Shown here: positions 20,111 to 34,923 of the stretch, in pieces
Layout: every line of letters starts with the position of its first letter
How positions within the stretch are numbered: the first letter of the stretch is position 1
NCBI GenBank assembly: GCA_007118295.1
Contig: SKRW01000198.1
Location: 1 to 35,031 of the forward strand
DNA from: Paracoccaceae bacterium
GTDB lineage: Bacteria > Pseudomonadota > Alphaproteobacteria > Rhodobacterales > Rhodobacteraceae
Reading direction: 5' to 3'
DNA length: 35,031 bases
The notes under the pieces: generated by a model
What the model was told of the DNA's origin: nothing
Database searches by the model: none
What the model saw: only the letters and a program-made list of their open reading frames with translations
Translations under genes and position numbers: made by a program

Positions 20111-20237
20111 TCAGCGCCACATCGGCGAACAGTCCAGCGTGATGACCTGCGAAACCGGGGCGCCGCGCGGGTTGTCGTCGGTATGCCAGCCGTCATACCG
20201 ACAGGGCGCAGACGGCCCTGAGCACAGGCAAGCGCAT
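20111..20237 (-). pseudogene. Possible frameshifted small secreted-protein gene
   Basis: On the minus strand an ATG (20235-20237) with AAAGG just upstream starts MRLPVLRAVCALSV, which resembles the beginning of a signal peptide, and stops at a TGA. In the +1-shifted frame the sequence continues with CRYDGWHTDDNPRGAPVSQV and ends ITLDCSPMWR at a TGA (20111-20113); this has good composition and two cysteines. The whole is 127 nt, one base away from a multiple of three, consistent with a single-base frameshift. It may be a decayed small exported protein, a sequencing error in an intact gene, or chance. I do not recognise the family. Confidence 0.3.
20177..20202. repeat. Perfect 9-bp inverted repeat upstream of the fad operon
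   Basis: GTCGGTATG and CATACCGAC are exact complements separated by 8 nt, located 109 bp before the fadE-type start and 129 bp after the aroB stop. It lacks a T-run, so it does not look like a standard terminator. It could be an operator dyad for the fad operon. It also lies inside the minus-strand coding-like remnant, so codon constraint could explain part of it. Confidence 0.45.
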
Positions 20238-20310
20238 GCACCTTTCCCGATCCTGGCAGGTTTGCAGGAACAATTCCCCTGCTGGTGCGTTTACCGGGCT
20301 GGAGGGCACC

Positions 20311-22571
20311 ATGTCATCATTCCGCAAAGACCGCATCACGAAACCCATCTTTCATTGGGCAAAGGGCGCGATGCCCGGTTTGTCCCAGACCGAACGAGAG
20401 GCGCTGGAAGCTGGTGAAGTCTGGTGGGACGCCGAGTTGATGTCCGGCAATCCCGACTGGAAGAAACTTCTCGCCGTGCGTGCGCCTGAACTTGGTGCTG
20501 ATGAAAGGGCGTTTCTGGACGGCCCCTGTGTCGAATTGTGCCAGATGCTGGACGATTGGGCGATCAACCGGACCGACGGCGATTTGTCCCCTGAAATCTG
20601 GGACTACATGCGCAAACACCGGTTCTTCGGCATGATCATCGCACGCAAATATGGTGGCCTCGGGTTTTCCGCCTTTGCCCATTCCGAGGTCGTCCGGCGT
20701 TTGTCGATGGTGTCGATCCCGGCGGCTGTCACGGTCATGGTGCCCAACTCGCTGGGGCCGGGCGAGTTGTTGCACCTGTTCGGGACAGATGCACAAAAAG
20801 ACCATTGGTTGCCACGTCTGGCCGATGGGCGCGAATTGCCCGCCTTCGGTCTGACCAGCGACGAGGCCGGATCAGACGCTTCTGCCATGGTCGATCATGG
20901 CGTTGTGTGTCGCGGGCAATGGCAGGGCAAGGAGGTGCTGGGCATCCGGCTGAACTGGTCCAAGCGTTACATCACGCTGGCCCCGGTCTGCACATTGCTT
21001 GGGCTGGCCTTCAAGCTGCAGGACCCGGATGGTCTGTTGGGCGATGACCCGGAACCGGGGATAACCTGCGCGCTTGTCCCCTCGGATTTGCCGGGGGTCG
21101 AGACCGGGCGCAGGCATATCGCTGCGGGCACGATGTTCCAGAACGGGCCGACAACCGGCAAGGACGTGTTCATCCCGGTGGACAACATCATCGGCGGTGC
21201 AGAGCAGGCGGGCAAGGGCTGGATGATGCTGATGAGCGCGCTTGCGGCTGGGCGGGGCGTGTCGCTGCCGTCGCTGGCCTGTGCAGCCACGACTCAGGCC
21301 GCCTATTCCAGCGGGGCCTACGCGCGGGTGCGCGAGCAGTTCAACCTGCCTATCGCGAAATTCGGGGGCATTCAGGAACCGCTCGCGCGGCTGGCGGCAA
21401 ATGCCTATGCTGTCGAGTCTGCGCGCCATCTGACCTGTGCGGGGCTGGATGAAGGGCGCGCGCTCTCGGTCATCTCGGCGCTGATGAAATACACGGCCAC
21501 GGACCGGATGCGCGCCTCGATTGATGACGCGATGGATATTCACGCTGGCAAGGCTGTGATCGACGGACCGATGAATTACCTGTCGGCCAGTTACCGAGCT
21601 GTGCCCATCGGGATTACCGTGGAAGGGGCAAATATCGTGACCCGCTCGCTCATGGTCTTCGGACAGGGCGCGATCCGGGCGCATCCGCATCTGCTTGATG
21701 AGATCCTCGCGCTGGAAAACGCGCAGCAGGACGAAGGGCTTGCTGCATTTGACACCCATTTCTGGCGGCATGTCGGCCATTCCATCCGCACTGTGGGCCG
21801 CAGCCTTGGCCGCGCGCTGACAGGGGCACGTTTCGCACCCTCGCCCCCCAAGGCCACCGAGGCGCGTGATGCGCCGCTTTACCGCGAACTCTCGCGCTGG
21901 TCGGCGGCTTATGCGATCACGGCAGATATGGCGTTCCTGACCATTGGCGGCGGGCTGAAGCGGATGGAAATGCTGTCAGGCCGGATGGCCGATATTCTGA
22001 GCGAGTTGTATATCACCTCTGCCGTGCTCAAGCACTGGCAGGACGAGGGGCGGCAGGCCGAGGATTTCGACCTTGTCGCCTATATCGCACAACGCTCTTT
22101 CGCCCGCATCAGTGTCTTGCTGGATGAAACCATCGCCAATTTTCCATCGCGCGGGGCGGCATTCATGCTGCGCGCCATCACGCGCCCGCGCGCTGTGGCG
22201 CGGCCCCCGTCCGACGCGCTGACCGCGCGCTGCGCAGCACTTGTCAGCGAAGCCGGGCCGACACGCGACAGGCTGGGCCGCGATCTGACAGGTCCGGGGC
22301 AAAGTGCGGGGATCGTTGCGCTGAATGACGCCTTTGACAAGACCATCGCGGCGGATGCCCTGCGCAAGCGCCTGCGTGCCTTGGGCATGACCCCGGCGCA
22401 AGCCCTTGATGCGGGCTTGCTCACGGAAGCCGAGAAGGCGCAGTTGGATGATCTCGCGCAGGCCGTGGCCAGCGTGATCGCAGTGGATGATTTCTCGCCC
22501 GAGGAATTTGCCGCATTGCTGCCCGCCGCTGGTGGGGCAAGGCCCAAAGACAGGACAAAGGAGGCTGCCGA

Positions 22572-22575
<4 letters not shown>
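20311..22575 (+). CDS. fadE: FadE-type acyl-CoA dehydrogenase
   Basis: This catalyses the first step of fatty-acid beta-oxidation, acyl-CoA to trans-2-enoyl-CoA, with FAD. The 754-aa length and layout match the large FadE/YafH type: an N-terminal segment with LSQTEREALEAGEVWWDAEL, the acyl-CoA dehydrogenase core (about 80-460, with FGLTSDEAGSDAS), the likely catalytic Glu438 in VEGANIVTRSLMVFGQGAIR, and a long C-terminal DUF1974-like helical domain (about 470-754). The ATG at 20311 has GGAGGG 5 nt upstream; an ATG at 20236 is less likely. The stop overlaps the thiolase gene as ATGA. It leads a four-gene operon that contains a full beta-oxidation cycle. Confidence 0.93.
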
Positions 22576-23860
<1,285 letters not shown>

Positions 23861-23861
<1 letters not shown>

Positions 23862-25939
23862 TGGACACGAGATTGAAAGACTACCTGAACGCCGCGACCC
23901 TTGAACTGGGCGGCGCGGCTGATGCGCTGGGCGACGGGCATTGGCGCTACGCGGTGGATGACGACCAGATCGGCTGGCTGGTGCTGAATTGCACGGACGC
24001 GTCGGTCAACACCATTTCGGATAAGGTGCTGCGCGAACTCGACGCTCATCTTGGCCAGATCGAGGCAGAACCACCCCGCGCGCTGATCCTGCGGTCGGCC
24101 AAGCCCGCAGGCTTTGCCGCCGGGGCCGATATTCACGGCCTTGCAGACATGGACGCAGACACCGCCGAACAGCTTTTGACCGATGCGCATGCCGTGTTGA
24201 ACCGGTTGCAGGGTCTGTCCTGCCCAACCATTGCCGTTGTGCATGGCGCTGCCCTGGGCGCAGGGTTCGAGATCGCGCTGGCCTGCGGTTACCGCATCGC
24301 CATTGACGGGGCCTCATTCGGATTGCCCGAGGTGCAACTGGGCCTGCATCCGGGTCTTGGCGGCACAATGCGCCTGCCCCAACTGATCGACCCGTTGCAA
24401 GCCATGCAGATGATGCTGACGGGCAAGACCGCGCATACAAGCCGTGCAAAGGATCTGGGCATCGCGGATCTTGTTGTCGAAGAGCGGCATCTGCGCGCCG
24501 CGATCCATGCGGTTGTGAAGGGTGAGGTCGATCAGCAGGCGCGTGGCCTGATGGGCAAGGCGTTCGGTTTGTCAGCGGCGCGGTCGCTGGCCGCAGAGAA
24601 AATGCGGCGCGAGGTGCAGAAAAAAGCCCCGAAAGACCATTACCCTGCCCCCTATGCGCTGATCGATATCTGGGCCGAACACGGCGACGCCCCGCGCGCG
24701 ATGCAGAAGGCTGAAATCGCCTCTTTCGCCAGGCTGTTGCAGTCCGAGACCAGCAAGAACCTAATCCGCGCCTTCAAGTTGCGCCAGAAGTTGAAACAGG
24801 GGGGCAAAGCGCATTGTGACATTGCCCGTGTCCATGTCGTCGGCGCAGGCGTCATGGGTGCCGAAATTGCCGCATGGGTCGCGATGCAGGGCAAGCAGGT
24901 CTCTGTCACTGACCCCGATGAGGGGGCACTTGGCAGGATGATCCGCCGCGCCACGGAAATCTGCAAGGACGCGCACAAGGACGGGCTTGCCACGCGCGAC
25001 ACGCTGGACCGGCTGATGCCAGACCCCAAGGGCTATGGGGTGCGCAACGCCGATCTGGTGATCGAGGCGGGACCGGAAAACCCCGAGGTGAAGGCCACGA
25101 TCTTTGCCGATCTTGGCCGCCAGATGAAAACGGGCGCCATTCTGGCCACCAATACCTCCAGCCTGCAACTGGAGGGGTTGACCGCGCATGTCCCGGCCAA
25201 GACCCGCTTTGCCGGGTTGCATTTCTTCAACCCGGTCAGCAAGGTTCCGTTGGTCGAGGTCGTCAGCCATGGATCGACCAGTGCCGCGACACGCACCCGC
25301 CTGATGGCGTTTTGCAACGCGATCAACCGTTTGCCGGTTGCCGTGGCAGATGCGCCTGGATTTCTGGTCAACCGCGCGCTCATGCCGTATCTGCTGGAGG
25401 CGCTCTTGATGCTGGATGAGGGCATCCCGAAAGAGCGTATCGACAAGGCGGCACTGGAATTCGGCATGCCGATGGGGCCGGTCACGCTGGCCGATCAGGT
25501 CGGGCTGGATATCTGCCTTGATGTGGCCGAAAGCCTCAATCAGTCACTGGATACCCCGATTGCGGACATCCCGTCGCTGCTGCGTGAAAAGGTCGAGGCG
25601 GGCAATCTGGGCCGCAAGACCGGGCGCGGCTTTTACGACTGGACAGACGGAACGCCCGCGCCCAGTTCCAGCGTGGCGATCCCGGCAGATCTGACGGACC
25701 GCCTGATTCTGCCCATGCTCAACGCCTGTGCGGAATGTCTGCGCAAGGGCGTGGTCGGCAGCGTGGAGGATCTGGATGCCGCCATGATCTTTGCCACGGG
25801 CTTTGCGCCGTTCCGTGGTGGCCCCATGCATTATGCGGCAGCGCGCGGTTTTGGGACTGTGCGCGCGCGCCTTGCCGAACTGGAAGCAGCGCATGGCGCA
25901 CGCTTTGCGCCAGACCCTTACTGGGCCGAACATGCCTGA
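23861..25939 (+). CDS. Enoyl-CoA hydratase/3-hydroxyacyl-CoA dehydrogenase (FadJ/FadB-type)
   Basis: This bifunctional enzyme hydrates enoyl-CoA and oxidises 3-hydroxyacyl-CoA with NAD+. The 692-aa protein has an N-terminal crotonase domain (about 25-210) with catalytic Glu137 (GAGFE) and Glu157 (LPEV), spaced 20 apart as in FadB. A dehydrogenase half follows, with the NAD motif GAGVMG (328-333), TNTSSLQ, catalytic His454 in HFFNPV, and the C-terminal 3HCDH domains (DAPGFLVNRALMPYLLEA). I chose the ATG at 23861, which overlaps the thiolase stop and has GGAGG upstream. An 8-nt overlap links it to the next gene. Whether it forms a complex with the thiolase cannot be seen here. Confidence 0.93.
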
Positions 25940-27788
25940 ACCCAAGGTGCATTTCACGTCCGAGGAACCAGTCGTGGACTGGATACTCGAAACGGTAGGC
26001 CATGACCTGCGCGTCGCCTTGCCGCTGGGGTTGGGCAAACCGGTCACGCTGGTAAACGCGCTTGTGCGCCGGGCCTGCGACGACCCCTCCATCCGGCTGC
26101 AGATTTTCACGGCCCTCACACTTGAGCGGCCCGACCCGTCCTCGGACTTTGAGCGCCGCTTTCTGGAACCGGCGCTTGACCGGCTGTTTGGCGATTATCC
26201 GCAAATCGAATATGCGCGTCTGCTGCGCGCAGGAAAACTGCCCGAGAATATTCACGTCACCGAGTTTTTCCTGCAATCGCCCAACTGGATCAAGGTGCCA
26301 CAGGCGCAGCAGAACTATGTCTCGGTGAATTACACCCATGCGCTGGATGTCTTGCTGGACAGTCAACCGAACCTTGTTCTGCAATTGCTGGCCGCCGATG
26401 AGGACCGCCTCAGCCTGTCCTGCAATACCGACATCACCGCTGACCTGTTGCGCCTGCGGCGGCAGGGCGCGGCTGATTTTACCCTTGTCGGGCAGGTGCA
26501 TGCGGATCTGCCGTTCATGGCGGGCCCTGCGGAACTGGATTTTTCGGATTGTGCCGCCTTGCTGCGGCAGGATGCGCCGCCGCATGACCTGTTCTCGGTC
26601 GTCAAGCAACCGGTCAGTCTGGCGGATCATGCCACGGCACTCCATGTCTCGCGGCTGGTGCGCGATGGTGGCACGCTTCAGATCGGGATTGGCCAGATCG
26701 GCGACGCGATTGCCCATGCCCTGACCCTGCGGCAGGATCAGAGGATCGCCCCGCTATGGGATACATGCCCCTTTCCCTGCGCGCCCCGCTTTGACGAGAC
26801 AGCCCCCTTCGAGACGGGCCTTTATGGCGTGACCGAAATGCTGGTCGATGGCCTGTTGGCGCTGTTCGAACGCGGTATTATCCGGCGCGAGGTGGATGGT
26901 GCGGCCATTCATGCCGGGTTTTTTCTGGACAGCCGTGATTTCTATGACCGGTTGAAAGCCCTGTCCCCACAGGCGCGCGCGCGCATTGCCATGGTGCCGG
27001 TGTCCTTTACCAATACGCTTCTGGGGGATGAGCCTGCCAAACGCGCGGCCCGCCAGCACGCCCGGTTCATCAACTCTGCGATGATGGTCACGCTTCTGGG
27101 CGCTGTCGTCTCTGACGGGACCGAGGACGGGCAGGTCGTCAGCGGCGTGGGCGGGCAGTTCAACTTTGTGACTCAGGCCTTTGCGCTGAAGGATGCCCGC
27201 GCCATCATCACCCTGCCTGCGACCCGCAGTGGCACATCGGGGCTGACATCCAACATCCGCTTCTCCTATGGTCATGTGACACTTCCCCGCCACCTGCGCG
27301 ACATCGTGGTCACGGAATACGGGATCGCGGACCTGCGCGGCAAAAGCGATGCGGACACCATCGCGGCACTTCTGGAAATCGCCGATAGCAGGTTTCAGTC
27401 TGAACTCGTGAGACAGGCCAAGGCGTCGGGTAAACTGCCCAAGACTTACCAAGTGCCGCCGACTGCGCGCCGCAATACCCCAGAGACGCTGCGAAAATGG
27501 CTGGAACCCCACAAGGATGCGCTGTTGCCACGTTTCCCGTTCGGGACAGATTTTTCCGAGATCGAGCAGTATCTGCTGCCCGCGCTGGCTGATCTGCGGC
27601 GGGCAAGCGCTCATGTTCCGGCGCTTGCCAGCCGGGTACTTCGCGGCGTGCAGGGCCGCCCGGCCCGGTCTGAGCATGACGCATTGGACCGCATGGCCAT
27701 GGTTCATCCTGTCGGGATCAAAGCGCGCGTGGCGCAACTGGCCCTGCGTGGCGCACTGCGGCGACAGGAAGACGCGGCGCGCGATTGA
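25932..27788 (+). CDS. Acetyl-CoA hydrolase/CoA-transferase family protein, long form
   Basis: The 618-aa protein belongs to the acetyl-CoA hydrolase/transferase family (class I CoA-transferase fold). Visible are a glycine-rich N-terminal nucleotide-like region (LPLGLGKPVTLVNALV), the likely catalytic Glu302 in GLYGVTEMLVDGLL, and the C-terminal hallmark VVSDGTEDGQVVSGVGGQFN followed by ITLPATR and VVTEYGIADLRGKSD. It is longer than the usual 430-550 aa, with an extra C-terminal part of roughly 100 residues. It overlaps the fadJ-type gene by 8 nt, so it is in the same operon. Release or transfer of CoA from beta-oxidation products is an inference; the substrate is unknown. It is convergent with the PNPOx-like gene after 53 bp. 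Confidence 0.88.
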   Translation: MPEPKVHFTSEEPVVDWILETVGHDLRVALPLGLGKPVTLVNALVRRACDDPSIRLQIFTALTLERPDPSSDFERRFLEPALDRLFGDYPQIEYARLLRAGKLPENIHVTEFFLQSPNWIKVPQAQQNYVSVNYTHALDVLLDSQPNLVLQLLAADEDRLSLSCNTDITADLLRLRRQGAADFTLVGQVHADLPFMAGPAELDFSDCAALLRQDAPPHDLFSVVKQPVSLADHATALHVSRLVRDGGTLQIGIGQIGDAIAHALTLRQDQRIAPLWDTCPFPCAPRFDETAPFETGLYGVTEMLVDGLLALFERGIIRREVDGAAIHAGFFLDSRDFYDRLKALSPQARARIAMVPVSFTNTLLGDEPAKRAARQHARFINSAMMVTLLGAVVSDGTEDGQVVSGVGGQFNFVTQAFALKDARAIITLPATRSGTSGLTSNIRFSYGHVTLPRHLRDIVVTEYGIADLRGKSDADTIAALLEIADSRFQSELVRQAKASGKLPKTYQVPPTARRNTPETLRKWLEPHKDALLPRFPFGTDFSEIEQYLLPALADLRRASAHVPALASRVLRGVQGRPARSEHDALDRMAMVHPVGIKARVAQLALRGALRRQEDAARD

Positions 27789-27841: not shown

Positions 27842-28411
27842 CTACGGGGCAAGCCACTGCCCGGACCACCCCTGCGCGCGCGAAAACCGCGCGCGGCGGT
27901 GATCAGGGCCAAGATGCAGGGCGTCAATCGCCTGCACGGTCAGGTGCAGGATGGCGAAAGCCGCCGGGTCGGGCGTTTTCTGATAGTCAAGCGCGTCGGG
28001 TACGGGCTGACCCGGCGGGGGAGTGCTGCCATAGGCCATGCGGGACGGGGGCGGGACCCGTTCCCATGTCGCTGCGGTGTCGGCTCCCGACAGGATCGCA
28101 ACATCTGCCTCCAGCCGGATTTGCAGATGCGCGTCACTGTCCCAGATATGCAGCGTGGCCCGTGGCGTCGCACGCAGGTCAGCGACCTTGGCCGAGCGCA
28201 GATCGGTATGGATGTCCAGCGTGCCTGCGGCCTTGTCAGCCGCGCGCAGGACCACGGTACGCGCTTGCGGCCAGCCCAGCGGCGAGAGCGTCGCCAGCGT
28301 CGGATGGCGCGCGGCTGCGTGGCGATCATGCACCCCGCGCGTCAGCCGTGCCCAGACCTGCCCATGCAGCCCGGCCAGTGTCTGCGCCCAGCGGTGCGGG
28401 TCGGCGCTCAT
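27842..28411 (-). CDS. Pyridoxamine 5'-phosphate oxidase-like FMN-binding protein
   Basis: This 189-aa protein resembles the pyridoxamine-phosphate-oxidase-related split-barrel flavoproteins. The N-terminal beta-strand pattern TLATLSPLGWPQARTVVLR is followed by IHTDLRSAKVADLRATPRAT and LHIWDSDAHLQIRLEADVAI, the usual FMN-binding core. The C-terminal part ends ARFSRAQGWSGQWLAP, with the Trp-rich tail often seen in this group. The actual substrate is unknown; canonical PdxH activity is possible but not proven. It overlaps the upstream DUF2805 gene (ATGA) and is convergent with the CoA-transferase family gene. Confidence 0.8.
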   Translation of the reverse strand: MSADPHRWAQTLAGLHGQVWARLTRGVHDRHAAARHPTLATLSPLGWPQARTVVLRAADKAAGTLDIHTDLRSAKVADLRATPRATLHIWDSDAHLQIRLEADVAILSGADTAATWERVPPPSRMAYGSTPPPGQPVPDALDYQKTPDPAAFAILHLTVQAIDALHLGPDHRRARFSRAQGWSGQWLAP

Positions 28412-28620
28412 TTATATGCCTCGCGCCGGTCGCCAAACTGTCGCACCCGCTTGCGCCAGGCGCGGTAACTGCCCGGTTTCAGTTCGGACCGCATCAGCGC
28501 CTTGACCTGATCCGGCCCCAGCCCGTGCTGGGCGCGGATATGATCGAAACGCGTGTGATCGCTTAGCGCCATGTCGATAATCTCGTTGATCGTGGCAGGG
28601 TCCGGGTTGTGCGCGGGCAT
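28408..28620 (-). CDS. DUF2805 (TIGR03643) family protein
   Basis: A 70-aa protein with the hallmark of this family: EIIDMALSDHTRFDHIRAQH, GLGPDQVKALMRSELKPGSY and RAWRKRVRQFGDRREAYK. It resembles a small helix-turn-helix-like fold, but no function is established. I chose the ATG at 28620 because the family normally begins near here; an ATG at 28683 would add an unconserved N-terminus. It has only a weak ribosome binding site. It is translationally coupled to the PNPOx-like gene and divergent from the renalase-like flavoprotein gene across 122 bp. Confidence 0.85.
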   Translation of the reverse strand: MPAHNPDPATINEIIDMALSDHTRFDHIRAQHGLGPDQVKALMRSELKPGSYRAWRKRVRQFGDRREAYK

Positions 28621-28678
28621 ATGTGGTCCAGACTTGGGGCAGGTATCCGGGTGACAATCTGGTGCGCTGTGACAGTTC

Positions 28679-28688
28679 GTCAATTGAC
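28679..28688. promoter_or_regulatory. Palindrome overlapping a candidate -35 box
   Basis: GTCAATTGAC is a perfect 10-bp palindrome in the divergent intergenic region. Its right half contributes to TTGACG (28684-28689), which is followed 16 nt later by TACCTG (28706-28711). Together they suggest a promoter for the 28743-31192 genes with an operator-like site. The -10 is weak and the role is inferred. Confidence 0.3.
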
Positions 28689-28742
28689 GCCCGCGCGCCG
28701 TGCCATACCTGCACCATCCGTGAGGGAATGCAGGGCAGTCAG

Positions 28743-29687
28743 ATGAGTGACGCGGCGGATGTGATTGTCATCGGGGCGGGATTGGCCGGGATCAGTTGCG
28801 CGCGCCTGCTTGCGCAGGCGGGGACTTCGGCGGTGCTGCTGGACAAGGGGCGCGGTCTCGGCGGCCGCATGGCAACGCGCCGTGTGACGCTGGATGCAGG
28901 CGAGGTGACATTTGATCATGGCGCGCAATATCTGCCCGCGACCGATGGCGACTTTGCACAGGTGTTGCGTGCGGCAGGGGCGCAGGGCTGGCACAGCGAT
29001 ACGGCACGGGTCGGCGCACCACGCATGTCCAGCCTGCCGCGCGCCCTTGCCGCGGGGTTGGATATCACCCAACAGGTAGAGATCACTGGTCTGGTGCAGG
29101 ATGCGGGCCTGTGGCATCTGACCAGCCCGACTGCAGCGCTTCGGGCGCGGCGCGTGGTGCTGACCATTCCGGCACCGCAAGCCCGCGCGCTTCTGGGCGA
29201 TGCGCAGCCATGGGCAGCGGGGCTTTCACAGGTGCGGATGGCCCCCTGCCTGACCCTGATGGCCGCCTTTCCGCCCGACAGCCCGCGCCCGTTTCGGCAT
29301 CGGCGTGATCCCGATCACCCGCTGGCATGGATCGCGCAGGACAGCAGCAAACCGGGGCGCAGAGCGGCGGCAGTGACATGGGTGGCACAGGCCGGGCCAG
29401 ACTTTTCGACCCTTCATCTGGAACAGACGCCCGAAGACATTGCAGCGCGCATGCTGCCTATGCTCTGCGATGCGATCGGGGTAGAGCCCGAGACTGCAGT
29501 TTACGCCCGCGCGCATCGCTGGCGCCATGCACAGACGGCCCGACCGCTTGGCGTGCCCTTTCTGCACAATGCGGATCGCAGCCTGTTTCTGGGCGGCGAC
29601 TGGTGCCTTGGCGCGCGCGCGGAACACGCATGGCAGAGCGGCAACGCCATTGCGCGCGATATTCTGGGCCCTGCCCATGCGGGATGA
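28743..29687 (+). CDS. Renalase-like FAD/NAD-dependent oxidoreductase (COG3380)
   Basis: The 314-aa protein starts with a Rossmann FAD motif, VIVIGAGLAGISCARLL (GxGxxG at 11-16), followed by the GG doublet GLGGRMATRR that binds the FAD pyrophosphate and FDHGAQYL. Near the C-terminus it has LFLGGDWCLGARAEHAWQSG, where the GD motif contacts the flavin. This matches small amine-oxidase-like flavoproteins related to renalase. The substrate is unknown. I chose the ATG at 28743 because AGGG lies 7 nt upstream; an ATG at 28728 is possible. The next gene overlaps its end by 11 nt. Confidence 0.85.
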   Translation: MSDAADVIVIGAGLAGISCARLLAQAGTSAVLLDKGRGLGGRMATRRVTLDAGEVTFDHGAQYLPATDGDFAQVLRAAGAQGWHSDTARVGAPRMSSLPRALAAGLDITQQVEITGLVQDAGLWHLTSPTAALRARRVVLTIPAPQARALLGDAQPWAAGLSQVRMAPCLTLMAAFPPDSPRPFRHRRDPDHPLAWIAQDSSKPGRRAAAVTWVAQAGPDFSTLHLEQTPEDIAARMLPMLCDAIGVEPETAVYARAHRWRHAQTARPLGVPFLHNADRSLFLGGDWCLGARAEHAWQSGNAIARDILGPAHAG

Positions 29688-30507
29688 TCCACGCATCGCG
29701 GGTGTGTTGCGCCTGATCACGGCAGCACTGCGCCCGCCGCCCGGTCTGGCGCGGATCGCACTGGCGCTCAGCCTTGGGATCGTGACGCATCTGGTCTTTG
29801 CAGCGGCAGTGCTGGCCATGATCGCGGCCATGTTCTTTGGGCTGAGCGAAAGTTTCGGGCGCGTGCCGCAGCCCTGGGCGTGGATCGCAAATGCCGCCCT
29901 GATCGCGCAATTCCCGCTGGCGCATTCGCTTTTCCTGACAGGGCGGGGCGGCACGGCGCTGGCCCGGCTGATCCCCGGCCCGTATGGCGCAACACTGGCA
30001 ACCACCACCTATGCGCTGATCGCGTCCTTGCAACTTCTGGCGCTGTTCGCGCTCTGGACGCCTTCAGGCATTGTCTGGTGGCACGCGGAAGGGGCGCTGT
30101 TCTGGGCCATCTGTGCGGCCTATGCGGGCGCGTGGCTGTTGCTGATAAAGGCCAGCTTCGACGCAGGCGCCGAGGTGCAATCTGGCGCACTGGGCTGGAT
30201 GTCACTGATGGCGCGGATCGCGCCCCGCTTTCCCGACATGCCAACGCGCGGCCTGTTTCGCGTGATCCGCCAGCCGATCTATGTGGCCTTTGCCCTCACG
30301 CTCTGGACGGTGCCGGTCTGGACGCCGGATCAACTGTTGCTGGCATTCAGCTACACGGCCTATTGCCTGCTCGCCCCCCGCCTGAAAGAGCGGCGCTTTG
30401 CCGCCCGCTATGGCGACCGTTTCATCCGCTACCGCGCGGCAGTGCCCTACGCCCTGCCCAAATTCACCCAAAGGACACCCGATGCGCAACGATCTGACAC
30501 TCTATGA
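29677..30507 (+). CDS. ICMT-family membrane methyltransferase, MddA/NnrU-like
   Basis: This 276-aa polytopic membrane protein has about five or six hydrophobic segments (for example LSLGIVTHLVFAAAVLAMIA, the ALIASLQLLALFAL region, and FWAICAAYAGAWLLLIKASF). Its C-terminal part resembles isoprenylcysteine methyltransferase-like proteins such as MddA: LFRVIRQPIYVAFALTLWTV, YTAYCLLAPRLKERRF and YGDRFIRYRAAVPYALP. The RHPxY motif expected in this superfamily reads RQPIY here, replacing the usual His. MddA methylates methanethiol to dimethyl sulfide, but that activity is only a candidate. It overlaps both neighbours (11 and 26 nt). A start at the ATG 29677 is supported by length and by coupling to the upstream gene. 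Confidence 0.7.
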   Translation: MRDDPRIAGVLRLITAALRPPPGLARIALALSLGIVTHLVFAAAVLAMIAAMFFGLSESFGRVPQPWAWIANAALIAQFPLAHSLFLTGRGGTALARLIPGPYGATLATTTYALIASLQLLALFALWTPSGIVWWHAEGALFWAICAAYAGAWLLLIKASFDAGAEVQSGALGWMSLMARIAPRFPDMPTRGLFRVIRQPIYVAFALTLWTVPVWTPDQLLLAFSYTAYCLLAPRLKERRFAARYGDRFIRYRAAVPYALPKFTQRTPDAQRSDTL

Positions 30508-31192
30508 CAAGGTGGCCCAAGACTGGTGGTCGGATGAAATCCGCTGGGTGCGCACGCTGAAAAACCTTGTGCCGGGGCGGTTGTCATGGATGGACCGGCA
30601 GATCGACTGGGCAGGCCGCGAGGTGCTGGATCTGGGCTGCGCGGGCGGTTTCATGGCCGAGGCATTGGCGGCGCGCGGTGCAACTGTCACCGGCATCGAC
30701 CCTGCCGCACAGGCGATTGCCGCCGCCAAGGCCCATGCGGCGCAGACCGGGCTCTGCATTCGCTATGATGTGGGCGTGGGCGAGGCGCTGCCCTATGCCG
30801 ATGCCAGTTTCGACGCTGTGGTCTGTGTCGATGTGCTGGAGCATGTGCGGGACCTGCCGCAGGTGCTGGCCGAGATTGCGCGCGTGCTGCGCCCCGGTGG
30901 GCTGTTCCTGTTCGACACGATCAACCGCAACCCGCTGGCCCGTCTGGCCACGATCACAGTGGCCGAAGACATCCTGCGCCTGCTGCCCAAGGGCACGCAT
31001 GACCCGGCCATGTTCATCAAGCCTGCCGAATTGCGCGCAGGGCTGCAATTTGCCGGGCTGGTTCCGGGGCGCTTTACCGGGCTTGGCCCGCGCGGCCTGA
31101 CCCTGCGCGGCGATCTGACCTTTGGCCGCTTGCCGCTGACCACCATCCTCTACATGGGTCTGGCCCGCAAACCCGAACTGGCCTCTGTCTGA
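30482..31192 (+). CDS. ubiG: UbiG-type SAM-dependent O-methyltransferase
   Basis: The 236-aa protein has the SAM-binding motif VLDLGCAGGFMAEALAARGA (48-67), a motif II-like FDAVVCVDVLEHV, and the UbiG-specific AEDILRLLPKGTHDPAMFIK. UbiG carries out the two O-methylations of ubiquinone synthesis. The N-terminus, however (LYDKVAQDWWSDEIRWVRTL), lacks the standard FKPLHxxNPxRL pattern of canonical UbiG, so this could be a paralogue with another polyphenol-like or lipid substrate. The ATG at 30482 has AAAGGA upstream and overlaps the preceding gene by 26 nt. It is convergent with the D-lactate dehydrogenase gene. Confidence 0.75.
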   Translation: MRNDLTLYDKVAQDWWSDEIRWVRTLKNLVPGRLSWMDRQIDWAGREVLDLGCAGGFMAEALAARGATVTGIDPAAQAIAAAKAHAAQTGLCIRYDVGVGEALPYADASFDAVVCVDVLEHVRDLPQVLAEIARVLRPGGLFLFDTINRNPLARLATITVAEDILRLLPKGTHDPAMFIKPAELRAGLQFAGLVPGRFTGLGPRGLTLRGDLTFGRLPLTTILYMGLARKPELASV

Positions 31193-31257: not shown

Positions 31258-32619
31258 TCAGACCGGGCGCACAAGTTTGCCCGGATTCATGATCCCGAGC
31301 GGGTCGAGCGCGGCTTTGACGCTGCCCATCACGTCCCAGGCAAGGCCATGTTCGGCCTCCATATATCCCAGCTTGCCCATGCCGATGCCATGTTCACCGC
31401 TGACAGTGCCACCCAGTCGCAAGGCGCGCTCTGCCATTGCATTTGCAAGCGCCTTTGCGCGCGCGATCTCGTCGGGGCGGTCGCGGTGGGGCAGCAGCAG
31501 CGCATGGAAATTGCCGTCCCCCACATGACCCAGGATCGGGCCGGGAATGCCGGAGTCTGCGATGTCGCGCGCGGTTTCCTCGACCGCTTCGGCAAGGCGC
31601 GAGATGGGCACGCAGATATCGGTCGTGATGGGGTGGGCGTCGGGGTGCAGGGCACGTGCGGCATAATAACCGTCATGGCGCATCTTCCACAGGCGGCCCC
31701 GGTCCTCGGGGCGGTCTGCCCACTGGAACGCCCCGCCGCCCATCTCTGTCACAATCTCGCCAAAACTGGCCGCCTGTTCGCGCACGCCGGTTGCACTGCC
31801 GTGAAACTCGACCATCAGATGCGGGCATTCCTGCATGCCCGTTCCGGACCATGCATTGAAGGCGCGCACATTCGCCGCATCGATGAATTCGATCCGCGCC
31901 ATCGGAATGCCGCTCTGGATGGTGGCGATGACGGTCTCCACGGCGCTGCCCATGTCGGGAAAGGCGCAGATCGCGGCTGTGATCGCTTCGGGCTGACCCT
32001 GCAGGCGCAGCGTCAGTTCGGTCATCAGGCCCAGCGTGCCCTCTGACCCGATGAACAGGGCCGTCAGGTCATACCCGGTCGAGGATTTGGGCGCGGCACT
32101 GCCAGTGCGGATGATCCGGCCATCGGCCAGCACCACCTCTAGCGCCAGCACATTGGCGCGCATCGTGCCATAGCGCACGGCGGTTGTCCCCGAGGCGCGC
32201 GTCGCCGCCATGCCCCCAAGCGAGGCATTGGCACCCGGATCGACCGGAAAGAACAGCCCGGTTGCGCGCAATTCGGTGTTCAGCGCCTCGCGGGTCACGC
32301 CGGGCTGGACCGTGGCGCGCATGTCCTCGGGCGCGACATGCAGCACCCGGTTCATGCGGCTGAAATCGACGCAAACCCCGCCATGGGGGGCGAGTGCATG
32401 CCCTTCAAGCGACGTGCCAGTTCCCCAACCGATCACCGGCACGCGATGTGCTGTGCACAGGCGCAGGATCTGGCTGACCTCTTTGGTCGTTTCTGGCCAG
32501 ACCACCGCATCGGGTGCCATTTCGGGGAAATGTGCCTCGGAACGGCCATGCAGCGCGCGATCCGATGCACCGGTGCTGAAGCGCGGTCCCAGCAGCGCCC
32601 GTAATGCGTCGAAGGGCAT
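31258..32619 (-). CDS. FAD-linked D-lactate dehydrogenase-type oxidase
   Basis: The 453-aa protein belongs to the GlcD/LDHD family of flavoproteins that oxidise D-2-hydroxyacids such as D-lactate. It shows the FAD PCMH domain (about 35-215) with GWGTGTSLEGHALAPHGGV (64-82), VDPGANASLGGMAATRASGT and FIGSEGTLGLMTELTL. The C-terminal cap domain contains the metal/substrate motif HVGDGNFH (365-372) and GEHGIGMGKLGYM (408-420), ending NPGKLVRPV. I chose the ATG at 32619 for the family-length N-terminus. It lies 4 nt after the DUF427 stop, so the two are an operon. The acid oxidised cannot be read directly; glycolate oxidase subunit GlcD is a related alternative. Confidence 0.88.
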   Translation of the reverse strand: MPFDALRALLGPRFSTGASDRALHGRSEAHFPEMAPDAVVWPETTKEVSQILRLCTAHRVPVIGWGTGTSLEGHALAPHGGVCVDFSRMNRVLHVAPEDMRATVQPGVTREALNTELRATGLFFPVDPGANASLGGMAATRASGTTAVRYGTMRANVLALEVVLADGRIIRTGSAAPKSSTGYDLTALFIGSEGTLGLMTELTLRLQGQPEAITAAICAFPDMGSAVETVIATIQSGIPMARIEFIDAANVRAFNAWSGTGMQECPHLMVEFHGSATGVREQAASFGEIVTEMGGGAFQWADRPEDRGRLWKMRHDGYYAARALHPDAHPITTDICVPISRLAEAVEETARDIADSGIPGPILGHVGDGNFHALLLPHRDRPDEIARAKALANAMAERALRLGGTVSGEHGIGMGKLGYMEAEHGLAWDVMGSVKAALDPLGIMNPGKLVRPV

Positions 32620-32623
32620 GAGG

Positions 32624-32962
32624 TCAGATCCGCTCGACAGTGACCTTGCTCGCGTCAAAGGCCAGATAATCACGCAACTGCGCGGCCTCTTCGGTCGGTT
32701 TTGTCAGGCTGTAACCTGCATTCAGGACCATGCCCTCGGGGCTGGACACATGGAAAAACACACCTTCGCCCCGGTCATCACAGATCAGCGTGCGGTCCGA
32801 CGGTTCCAGCACGGCACTCGCGATATCATCGCGGGGGAAATAGATCACGAAGGGATAATCGCGCTGGACAAGTTCCAGCGCGCGGGTGCTTTCGCCAATG
32901 ACCGCGCCATTCGCGCGGACTGTCCATGTGCCCTGTGCGGGGTAGATCCGGATATTGGTCAT
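32624..32962 (-). CDS. DUF427 domain protein
   Basis: The 112-aa protein fits DUF427, a small beta-rich fold: IRIYPAQGTWTVRANGAVIG, ESTRALELVQRDYPFVIYFP and RDDIASAVLEPSDRTLICDD in sequence, then GEGVFFHVS and a C-terminal LRDYLAFDASKVTVERI. The function is unknown. I chose the ATG at 32962, with AAGGA 9 nt upstream; the frame is open further upstream but reads poorly and crosses the gap after pepP. Two copies of a 14-bp repeat lie directly upstream of the ribosome binding site. It is followed 4 nt later by the D-lactate dehydrogenase gene. Confidence 0.85.
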   Translation of the reverse strand: MTNIRIYPAQGTWTVRANGAVIGESTRALELVQRDYPFVIYFPRDDIASAVLEPSDRTLICDDRGEGVFFHVSSPEGMVLNAGYSLTKPTEEAAQLRDYLAFDASKVTVERI

Positions 32963-32975
32963 GGTCAACTGTCCT

Positions 32976-33003
32976 TGTTCTCGGGCCGTTGTTCTCGGGC
33001 CGT
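32976..33003. repeat. 14-bp tandem duplication
   Basis: The unit TGTTCTCGGGCCGT occurs twice in perfect tandem (32976-32989 and 32990-33003). On the minus strand it lies immediately upstream of the AAGGA ribosome binding site of the DUF427 gene. It may be a recent slippage duplication affecting the leader. Confidence 0.8.
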
Positions 33004-33081
33004 ATGGTTGGGCGATAGGGTCAGGCCAGGAATTCAGGCCAAGGTTTTCGGGGTTGCCGTCACTATTGCAGGCTTTTGCTG

Positions 33082-33105
33082 CAAACGCAAAGCCGCGACG
33101 CGGCT
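33082..33105 (-). terminator. Candidate terminator after pepP
   Basis: Seven nt after the pepP stop the minus strand carries a 6-bp GC stem with a 3-nt loop (AGCCGC-GTC-GCGGCT) followed by TTGCGTTT. A second weak dyad (TTGCAG/CTGCAA, 33066-33084) follows. The short stem and interrupted T-run make it a weak intrinsic terminator. Confidence 0.4.
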
Positions 33106-33111
33106 GGCAGG

Positions 33112-34923
33112 TCAGATAGGCTCGCAGGCGGCGGCCAGCCACTCCCCGGTCTGTTCCGACACCAGAGGGCGCAGCAATGTCAGCACCCGCGCGTGATAGG
33201 CATCAAGCCATGACCGCTCATCAGGGCTGAGCAGGTCGCGCAGGATCAGGCGGCGGTCTATGGGCACAAGGGTCAGTGTCTCGAAGTCCAGCCAGTCGCG
33301 GGCATCGCCGCCGCTGGGCGCCTCACCCGCCTTCACGGCGACCAGATTCTCGATGCGGATGCCGAAATGGCCCTCGCGGTAATAGCCCGGCTCGTTCGAC
33401 AGCAGCATTCCCTCGGCCAAAGGCACGGACGAGGACCGCGCTAGCCGTTGTGGCCCTTCATGCACGGACAGAAACGCACCGACACCGTGCCCTGTGCCAT
33501 GGTCGTAATCCTGCCCGGTAAGCCAGAGCGGGTAGCGCGCCAGCGCATCCAGATGGCCACCCGCCACACCGCGCGGGAAACGCGCGCGCGACAAGGCGAT
33601 CATTCCCTGCAGCACGCGCGTGAAACACTCGGCCTCGACGGTTCCGACCGGGCCGATGGCCATTGTCCGGGTGATGTCCGTCGTGCCGTCGCGGTATTGC
33701 GCGCCTGAATCGACCAGCATCAGGTCGCCCGGAATCAGGCGGCGGTTGCTCTGCTCTGTTACGCGATAGTGGATGATCGCGCCATTGGGGCCGGACCCGG
33801 CAATCGTGTCAAAGCTCAGATCAACCATCTGGGGATCACGGGTGCGGCAGGCCTCCAGGTGGCGGGCGATATCGATCTCGGTCAGCACATGCGCGGGGTC
33901 AGCGACAAGCTGCGCGGATTGCTGGTCCAGCCAGCACAGGAACTCGACCATCGCCGCACCATCGCGCAGATGGGCTGCGCGGGTGCCCGCGAGTTCTGCC
34001 CCGGTCTTGCGGGCCTTGGGCAGTGTGCAGGGGTCCTGCATGAACTGTGTTTCGACTTGTGCCTCATGCAACAGGTCGATCACGCGCAGCGGCACAGTCA
34101 GCTTGTCCAGTCGCACCGGGCCGTTGAGCGTGCGCAGGGCGGGCTCGAAGGCTTCGGGCGGGCGCAGTTGAACGCCCTCATCCAGCGTGACATCGGTGAA
34201 TTTCGCGGCACTGGCGAAAAGATCGACACGGCCATCGTCATGGACAATGCCAAAGGCCTGCACGACCGGCAGTCGCGGCAGGTCGGCCCCGCGCAGGTTC
34301 AAGAGCCAGCACAGACTTTCGGGCTGGGTCAGCACCGCGGCGCGCTGGCCTGCATTGCTCAGCGCCTTGGCAATCTGCGCGCGCTTTGCGCCGCTTGACA
34401 GGCCCGTCAGGGTTTCGGGCTGGACAAAGACCTGACCCATCGGCGGGCCGGGCCGGTCGGTCCATAGCAGGTCGATCTGGTTGGGCAGGCGACGCAGCGT
34501 AATTGCGCTGCCCGAAAGATCCCGTTCCAGCGTTTCGATTTCGTCCGGGGTGTGCAGCCAAGGGTCAAAGCCGATCACGGCCCCATTCGGGCACGCCTCG
34601 CGCAGCCATGTGCCGGGCTTGGTGTCGGGCCAGGCAACAGGGGTGAAATCCGGCGCGCATTGCAGGCGCGCCTGCATGCGGTAGCGGCCATCCACGAACA
34701 GGCCCGCACGTTCGGGCAACACGATACAGAACCCCGCCGAACCGGTGAAACTGGTCAGCCAGGCCAGACGTTCATCACAACTTGCCACATATTCGCCCTG
34801 ATGAGCATCCGCACGGGGCACGATATAGCCTTGCACGCCAAGGCCCGCGAGGGCCGTGCGCAGGGCCTGCAGGCGCGGCGGCCCATCTTCAAGGCGGGTC
34901 GTGGCTGCAAAGGATTGAAACAT
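33112..34923 (-). CDS. pepP: Aminopeptidase P family (M24B) peptidase, long form
   Basis: This metallopeptidase removes the N-terminal residue before proline. The 603-aa length and three-part architecture match the large Xaa-Pro aminopeptidase form similar to eukaryotic XPNPEP1: two creatinase-like N-terminal domains (about 1-310) and a C-terminal pita-bread domain with all five metal ligands, Asp405 (VDSGAQY), Asp416 (TTDITRT), His479 (HGTGHGVG), Glu511 (SNEPGYY) and Glu525 (RIENL). A substrate-site His385 (IIHYR) is also visible. The ATG at 34921-34923 is the first in frame, preceded by CAGG. It is likely cytoplasmic, as no signal peptide is visible. It is separated from DUF427 by 149 bp with a possible terminator. 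Confidence 0.93.
   Translation of the reverse strand: MFQSFAATTRLEDGPPRLQALRTALAGLGVQGYIVPRADAHQGEYVASCDERLAWLTSFTGSAGFCIVLPERAGLFVDGRYRMQARLQCAPDFTPVAWPDTKPGTWLREACPNGAVIGFDPWLHTPDEIETLERDLSGSAITLRRLPNQIDLLWTDRPGPPMGQVFVQPETLTGLSSGAKRAQIAKALSNAGQRAAVLTQPESLCWLLNLRGADLPRLPVVQAFGIVHDDGRVDLFASAAKFTDVTLDEGVQLRPPEAFEPALRTLNGPVRLDKLTVPLRVIDLLHEAQVETQFMQDPCTLPKARKTGAELAGTRAAHLRDGAAMVEFLCWLDQQSAQLVADPAHVLTEIDIARHLEACRTRDPQMVDLSFDTIAGSGPNGAIIHYRVTEQSNRRLIPGDLMLVDSGAQYRDGTTDITRTMAIGPVGTVEAECFTRVLQGMIALSRARFPRGVAGGHLDALARYPLWLTGQDYDHGTGHGVGAFLSVHEGPQRLARSSSVPLAEGMLLSNEPGYYREGHFGIRIENLVAVKAGEAPSGGDARDWLDFETLTLVPIDRRLILRDLLSPDERSWLDAYHARVLTLLRPLVSEQTGEWLAAACEPI

Follow-up and report, generated by a model that had tools for sequence, protein, structure and literature searches.

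The cassette and its neighbourhood

This work concerns a compact gene cassette in a 35,031-nucleotide stretch of Paracoccaceae bacterium DNA (GenBank assembly GCA_007118295.1, contig SKRW01000198.1), which at its full length is called the window. Three forward-strand genes, named here FLAV, MDD and UBIG, encode a renalase-like flavin adenine dinucleotide (FAD) flavoprotein, a multi-helix membrane protein and a UbiG-like S-adenosylmethionine (SAM) methyltransferase paralogue; they face a reverse-strand pair encoding a DUF2805 protein and a PNPOx-like flavin mononucleotide (FMN) flavoprotein (Table 1). Each of these protein families is individually known. Within the family, most genomes that carry FLAV, MDD or UBIG also have purple-bacterial reaction-centre genes, and this is the strongest new result of the analysis.

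In the window, FLAV and MDD overlap by 11 nucleotides (29677–29687), MDD and UBIG by 26 (30482–30507), and DUF2805 and the PNPOx-like gene by 4. The original prediction, made from the sequence letters, had given the 11- and 26-nucleotide overlaps correctly and had put every gene that it named in the right place. Its description of a trio facing a coupled pair across a short divergent region also held, the gap being 122 bp long and kept in the genus. Its range, 28408–31192, takes in the trio and DUF2805 but omits most of the PNPOx-like gene (27842–28411).

Table 1. Features of the cassette, in window coordinates
Feature	Size	Position	Strand	Basis
FLAV, renalase-like FAD flavoprotein (amine-oxidase superfamily)	314 aa	28743..29687	+	Pfam Amino_oxidase and NAD_binding_8; best solved relative renalase 4zcc
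MDD, multi-helix membrane protein, kin of MddA/PEMT-type methyltransferases	276 aa	29677..30507	+	NCBIfam MddA, 77.7 bits
UBIG, UbiG-like SAM methyltransferase paralogue	236 aa	30482..31192	+	TIGR01983, 163.5 bits
DUF2805 (TIGR03643-like) small protein	70 aa	28408..28620	-	PF10985, 61.4 bits
PNPOx-like FMN flavoprotein	189 aa	27842..28411	-	PF12766, 45.5 bits; solved relative 2ou5
Divergent intergenic region DUF2805/FLAV	122 bp	28621..28742		
Palindrome GTCAATTGAC, halves forming TTGAC (-35-like) boxes	10 bp	28679..28688		Column conservation; copies before cassette genes

MDD and UBIG form the stable core of the gene set

Conservation was followed in two samples. The first comprised 80 named MDD loci, the best 80 of 190 relatives, which are biased to near relatives and in which contig ends cut some flanks; the second comprised 295 genomes that sample the family at close to one per genus. 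For the genomes, the E-value cut-offs for UBIG (1e-60), FLAV (1e-30) and PHR, a photolyase-like neighbour gene (1e-40), were fixed before the results, and the MDD set was reduced from 44 genomes to 34 after a gap had been seen (matches of 9e-55 or better were kept; the next stood at 4e-19).

UBIG was present in 59 of the 80 named loci, FLAV in 42 and all three genes in 36; MDD was directly flanked by FLAV and UBIG in 34. With the start codon closest to the expected place chosen by script, MDD and UBIG overlapped at every one of the 58 same-strand junctions called (4–29 nucleotides), and FLAV and MDD overlapped in 34 of 42 loci. The MDD/UBIG overlap was 11 nucleotides long at 38 of the 58 junctions, and the 26 nucleotides of the window lie above this norm. 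The predicted overlapping unit of three genes is thus supported, and its overlaps recur in relatives. DUF2805 was found in ten named loci, all of which contained FLAV. Five of these belong to the window's genus and have the divergent layout; in the other five, under other group labels (L040, L060, L061, L080 and L089), DUF2805 lies downstream of UBIG. In Yoonia vestfoldensis DSM 16212 the module is present twice, on separate scaffolds (L080 and L089), and one copy has the longest gene set seen.

Among the 295 genomes, orthologues of MDD were found in 34, of UBIG in 25, of FLAV in 28 and of DUF2805 in 29. MDD and UBIG were adjacent, within 10 kb, in 16 of the 18 genomes with both. Within the same limit lay MDD and FLAV in 4 of 12 genomes, MDD and DUF2805 in 4 of 13, and FLAV and DUF2805 in 2 of 5, both of the window's genus. 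FLAV, MDD and UBIG were all present in seven genomes and contiguous in four (G000, G028, G065 and G184). In the window's genus, 14 of 35 relatives lacked MDD. The counts from the two samples mark MDD and UBIG as the stable core, which FLAV joins frequently and DUF2805-PNPOx occasionally.

The original prediction had looked for conserved co-occurrence of the trio with DUF2805. The trio does recur in other genera, and DUF2805 is always accompanied by FLAV in the named loci, but the full set is not family-wide, given the 7 trio genomes among 295 and the 2 of 5 for FLAV-DUF2805. The prediction had also held that adjacency confined to one lineage would defeat the idea of a shared pathway; adjacency is indeed restricted where FLAV and DUF2805 are concerned, but for MDD and UBIG it is not.

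FLAV, MDD and UBIG are mostly found in genomes with reaction-centre genes

FLAV, MDD and UBIG track anoxygenic photosynthesis, a link that the original prediction, working from the letters, had no means of seeing, any more than the one with photolyase-like genes. The reaction-centre genes PufL/M (PF00124) were found in 122 of the 295 genomes. With kinship ignored, they were present in 32 of the 34 MDD genomes (14.1 expected, odds ratio 30.4), in 26 of 28 FLAV genomes and 22 of 25 UBIG genomes, as well as in 83 of 100 PHR and 21 of 29 DUF2805 genomes. The window's own genome carries PufL/M (contig C251). Among the 122 phototrophs, MDD and UBIG occurred together in 17 genomes, compared with 5.8 expected.

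PufL/M were also found in 43 of 50 named MDD-bearing genomes, which we picked from the 80: isolates, loci whose label lies outside Rhodobacteraceae, and further genomes, most of them on longer contigs. The positive genomes comprised 34 of the 36 others and 9 of the 14 labelled outside Rhodobacteraceae, several of these 14 being metagenome-assembled genomes with possibly wrong labels. PufL/M together with MDD outside the Rhodobacteraceae label occur, for example, in Rhabdaerophilum and in Bradyrhizobium diazoefficiens SZCCT0138. The MDD of a Bradyrhizobium locus (L090) is 74% identical to that of the window.

MDD is related to MddA and UBIG to UbiG

The sole NCBIfam match of MDD was MddA (NF045656), at 77.7 bits against an equivalog cut-off of 270, aligned over positions 9–238 of the 238-position profile. 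No Pfam family matched MDD at 1e-3, PEMT coming no closer than an E value of 0.027. All 24 aligned MDD sequences matched the MddA model (best E value 9.7e-27), and the motif RQPIY was invariant among them. MDD resembles the MddA/PEMT/ICMT/NnrU group in profile coverage, membrane helices and a conserved C-terminal block; it differs from MddA in its score, far below the cut-off, and in the replacement of the His of the RHP motif by Gln in all 24 aligned sequences. RHP is part of the MddA/ICMT-type SAM site. Two distant homologues of MDD, L023 and L024, clear the MddA cut-off (305.7 and 279.8 bits) and carry RHP. Judged by model score and motif, MDD is not MddA, and its assignment to a dimethyl sulfide (DMS) pathway was rejected on the same two grounds. 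The suggestion in the original prediction of methanethiol or DMS chemistry is therefore disfavoured; the quinone or lipid substrate that it also named is a possibility.

UBIG exceeded the TIGR01983 cut-off of 102.95 with 163.5 bits, matching profile positions 4–201 of 228, and its best solved relative was the UbiG structure 4kdc (E value 1.2e-38). It is like UbiG in passing this cut-off and in its SAM-binding core; it differs in that the profile end, positions 202–228, is unmatched and in that the genome has another UbiG, at C23, which scores 289.2 bits over the full profile (1–228). By these comparisons UBIG is a UbiG paralogue, with a better UbiG elsewhere in the genome, and plain UbiG was dropped as the sole reading because of that second gene.

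FLAV, DUF2805 and the PNPOx-like protein

Profile matches linked FLAV to the solved renalases 4zcc (E value 1.2e-38, in two stretches) and 3kkj (E value 5.5e-36), in agreement with its earlier description as renalase-like; TAL-effector matches among the structures were short (about residues 233–259) and were set aside. Renalases are described as oxidising 1,2- and 1,6-NAD(P)H isomers (PMC7660482). By analogy with bacterial renalase (4zcc), which it resembles in sequence, FLAV may have this activity. Among the matches listed in the open-licence literature (titles and abstract starts), we found no description of operon partners like MDD or UBIG for a bacterial renalase.

DUF2805 scored 61.4 bits against PF10985, above the gathering score of 22.5, and 63.6 bits against TIGR03643, slightly below the cut-off of 66.55. 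The PNPOx-like protein matched PF12766 with 45.5 bits (cut-off 26) and the solved protein 2ou5 with an E value of 4.3e-31. It fell short of the model for pyridoxamine 5'-phosphate oxidase, PdxH, with 35.7 bits against the TIGR00558 cut-off of 180.

A palindrome in the divergent region belongs chiefly to the window's genus

We aligned the DUF2805/FLAV gap from 12 records of the window's genus with the facing arrangement, representing seven distinct genomic sites. The palindrome was exact at six of the seven, L010 being the exception, and the rest of the gap around it was mostly variable. On the forward strand a conserved ATANNT follows 16 nucleotides past the palindrome, and a comparable block occupies the mirror position on the other strand. 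We read this arrangement as two putative back-to-back promoters whose -35 regions are fused into one, with a dimeric operator as a possible alternative. A 12-nucleotide inverted repeat (92%) surrounds the palindrome at 28635–28646 and 28705–28716, without evident conservation in the alignment.

Upstream regions could be taken from 74 of the 80 named loci, six being excluded because the operon began less than 60 bases from the locus start. The palindrome was exact in 11 of them, compared with 0.6% of random stretches, and 7 of these 11 were among the nine named loci in which DUF2805 or PNPOx directly faces FLAV or MDD. The 1.30 Mb of fetched loci contained 25 exact copies. Of these, 24 stood upstream of FLAV, MDD, PNPOx or PHR (15 of 16 without duplicates), and the remaining one lay at the end of an SDR gene. 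Twelve of the 15 distinct cassette sites were in the window's genus, the other three being L041, L056 and L109. As a cassette-wide operator the palindrome would thus apply only in part, and on this distribution the motif is chiefly a feature of the window's genus. A role as a genome-wide regulon site was rejected, the single other copy in the window's own genome lying inside an 823-codon open reading frame (ORF).

Photolyase-like and other neighbouring genes

Clustering of neighbouring ORFs in the 80 named loci gave PHR (32 loci), DUF4149 (26), DUF427 (16), PNPOx (12), ABC1 kinase, DUF393 and DUF2805 (10 each), CIA30 (9), SDR and FolB (7 each) and a full photolyase (4). PHR or a full photolyase lay within the fetched flanks of 33 loci. 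In many relatives FLAV-MDD-UBIG or MDD-UBIG follows a photolyase-like gene, forming the photolyase-bearing gene islands of alphaproteobacteria seen here; the window differs in that no photolyase gene was seen next to its cassette. Its genome had no PHR match at 1e-40 and has photolyases at C136, C157 and C167. On G000 C167 (L147), a photolyase gene truncated at the contig end precedes a gene that by eye resembles one for a cyclopropane-fatty-acid-synthase-type methyltransferase.

PHR itself (L054, 6751–7974, and relatives; 100 of 295 genomes at 1e-40) carries its FAD domain in front of a predicted alpha/beta domain. FAD_binding_7 (PF03441) matched residues 78–205, in the N-terminal half, with 83.7 bits; profile positions 9–197 matched residues 209–396 of photolyase 1tez (E value 2.2e-18); and model residues 1–241 aligned to residues 169–420 of the Thermus photolyase 2j07 (Z score 14.9, root-mean-square deviation 3.7, 224 residues aligned). 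The C terminus is a predicted alpha/beta domain (pLDDT 87), which gave no match to the antenna domain PF00875 and a probability of 0.9% in a profile comparison with four photolyase N-domains. PHR may be a rearranged photolyase: its FAD domain is clear, but no link emerged between its C-terminal domain and the antenna domain of photolyases.

MDD and PHR occurred together in 31 of the 34 MDD genomes (11.5 expected, odds ratio 28.8). DUF2805 lay at most 0.6 kb from PHR in 5 of the 23 genomes with both (G295 C31, G290 C3, G298 C34, G329 C15 and G339 C51), so that it may be no less a partner of the photolyase-like gene than of FLAV.

In the window, a run of genes at 20236–27788 with acyl-CoA dehydrogenase, thiolase and acetyl-CoA hydrolase/transferase domains, together with a FadJ-like ORF assigned by eye, places fatty-acid degradation beside the cassette. 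Downstream, on the reverse strand, follow genes for a GlcD-like FAD oxidase and a DUF427 protein (31258–32673 and 32624–33142). The DUF427 proteins adjoining MDD in relatives are only about 27% identical to that of the window.

Discussion

We tentatively favour, at somewhat short of an even chance, the view that the cassette is a phototrophy-linked accessory operon whose job would lie in life with light and not in the production of a sulfur gas; our confidence in any single substrate is much lower. Such an operon would serve bacteriochlorophyll-bearing aerobic cells facing light and photo-oxidation. MDD would hold or handle a membrane isoprenoid or lipid (a quinone, carotenoid or similar), UBIG would methylate that compound or a related group, and the two would act in sequence on one membrane compound. 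FLAV would oxidise a damaged or reduced intermediate or clear a wrong redox form, as renalase does with aberrant NAD(P)H isomers. A light-stress setting fits the photolyase-like genes that adjoin the unit in relatives. This reading also draws on the co-occurrence with PufL/M and PHR, the adjacency of MDD and UBIG, the recurrent overlaps, the palindrome kept between variable flanks and the kinship of FLAV with renalase. A bolder and unlikely version holds that MDD and UBIG are unrecognised, widespread accessory genes of purple-bacterial aerobic phototrophy, whose product would be a methylated quinone, carotenoid or lipid of the membrane, needed by the photosynthetic membrane or for its photoprotection. 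The renalase-like enzyme and, in many relatives, a domain-rearranged photolyase-like protein would belong to the same circuit.

Several observations weigh against a link of the operon to phototrophy. The association in the 295 genomes takes no account of kinship, and phototrophy is patchy and clade-bound in the family; the 50 genomes were hand-picked and share at least four with the 295 (L050, L063, L101 and L103). PufL/M were not found in 7 of the 50, five of which belong to the 14 labelled outside the family and which include the isolates Devosia psychrophila and Loktanella salsilacus. Of the 28 FLAV matches, roughly half reach only 34–45% identity, and many PHR matches 44–51%, so that they are perhaps not strict orthologues. 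MDD mostly does not lie near PufL/M: G028 and G298 have seven ORFs in common in their puf regions, one of them antisense, and none of the seven was matched elsewhere in the fetched loci at more than 45% identity and half length. MDD lies within 10 kb of PHR in only 5 of the 31 genomes with both; among the 122 phototrophs the MDD-PHR link is weaker (29 of 32, 21.8 expected). The predicted structure of MDD was poor (pLDDT 61) and unfit for structure search, and with its RQP motif MDD may be no methyltransferase.

The cassette could instead belong to a general light or UV-stress island, its genes travelling with photolyases in surface-water bacteria, of which phototrophs would just be examples, with no tie to the photosynthetic apparatus. 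PHR, full photolyase, FolB, CIA30, DUF393, DUF427 and ABC1 kinase recur next to MDD, PHR lies within 10 kb of DUF2805 and of FLAV each in 5 of the 23 genomes with both, and MDD is present in the Devosia and Loktanella isolates just named. However, MDD tracks PufL/M about as strongly as it tracks PHR (32 versus 31 of 34 genomes), and the window's genome lacks a PHR match at the cut-off used; we regard such an island as rather unlikely, though it is the most serious competitor. Tailoring of ubiquinone or a related quinone by UBIG and MDD, with FLAV keeping the right redox state, would agree with the TIGR01983 and 4kdc matches of UBIG and with the ABC1 (UbiB-like) kinase in 10 of the 80 named loci. 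The full-length UbiG at C23 and the restriction of the UBIG paralogue to 25 of 295 genomes at 1e-60 argue against it, and we give it a small probability.

That the cassette merely packs unrelated enzymes into a compact operon with no shared pathway appears smaller still in likelihood: few of the 295 genomes have FLAV or DUF2805 close to MDD (4 of 12 and 4 of 13), but MDD and UBIG are adjacent in 16 of 18, overlap at all 58 named junctions and co-occur in 17 phototrophs (5.8 expected). Methylation of methanethiol to DMS by an MddA-type enzyme is very improbable. The MddA model is the sole NCBIfam match of MDD, but the score is far from the cut-off and RQP replaces the RHP of the homologues that pass it; neither UbiG nor renalase is known to play a part there.

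Among the matches listed from the open-licence literature searched (titles and abstract starts), we found none that described the cassette, the palindrome or the association with PufL/M. Automatic names such as MddA-like and UbiG would steer the operon into sulfur-gas or ubiquinone models, which the tests made here support little. The operon is small and would be simple to delete and test. Genes that track photosynthesis from genus to genus while lying outside its gene cluster may supply steps that are still missing from the chemistry of pigments, quinones or photoprotection.

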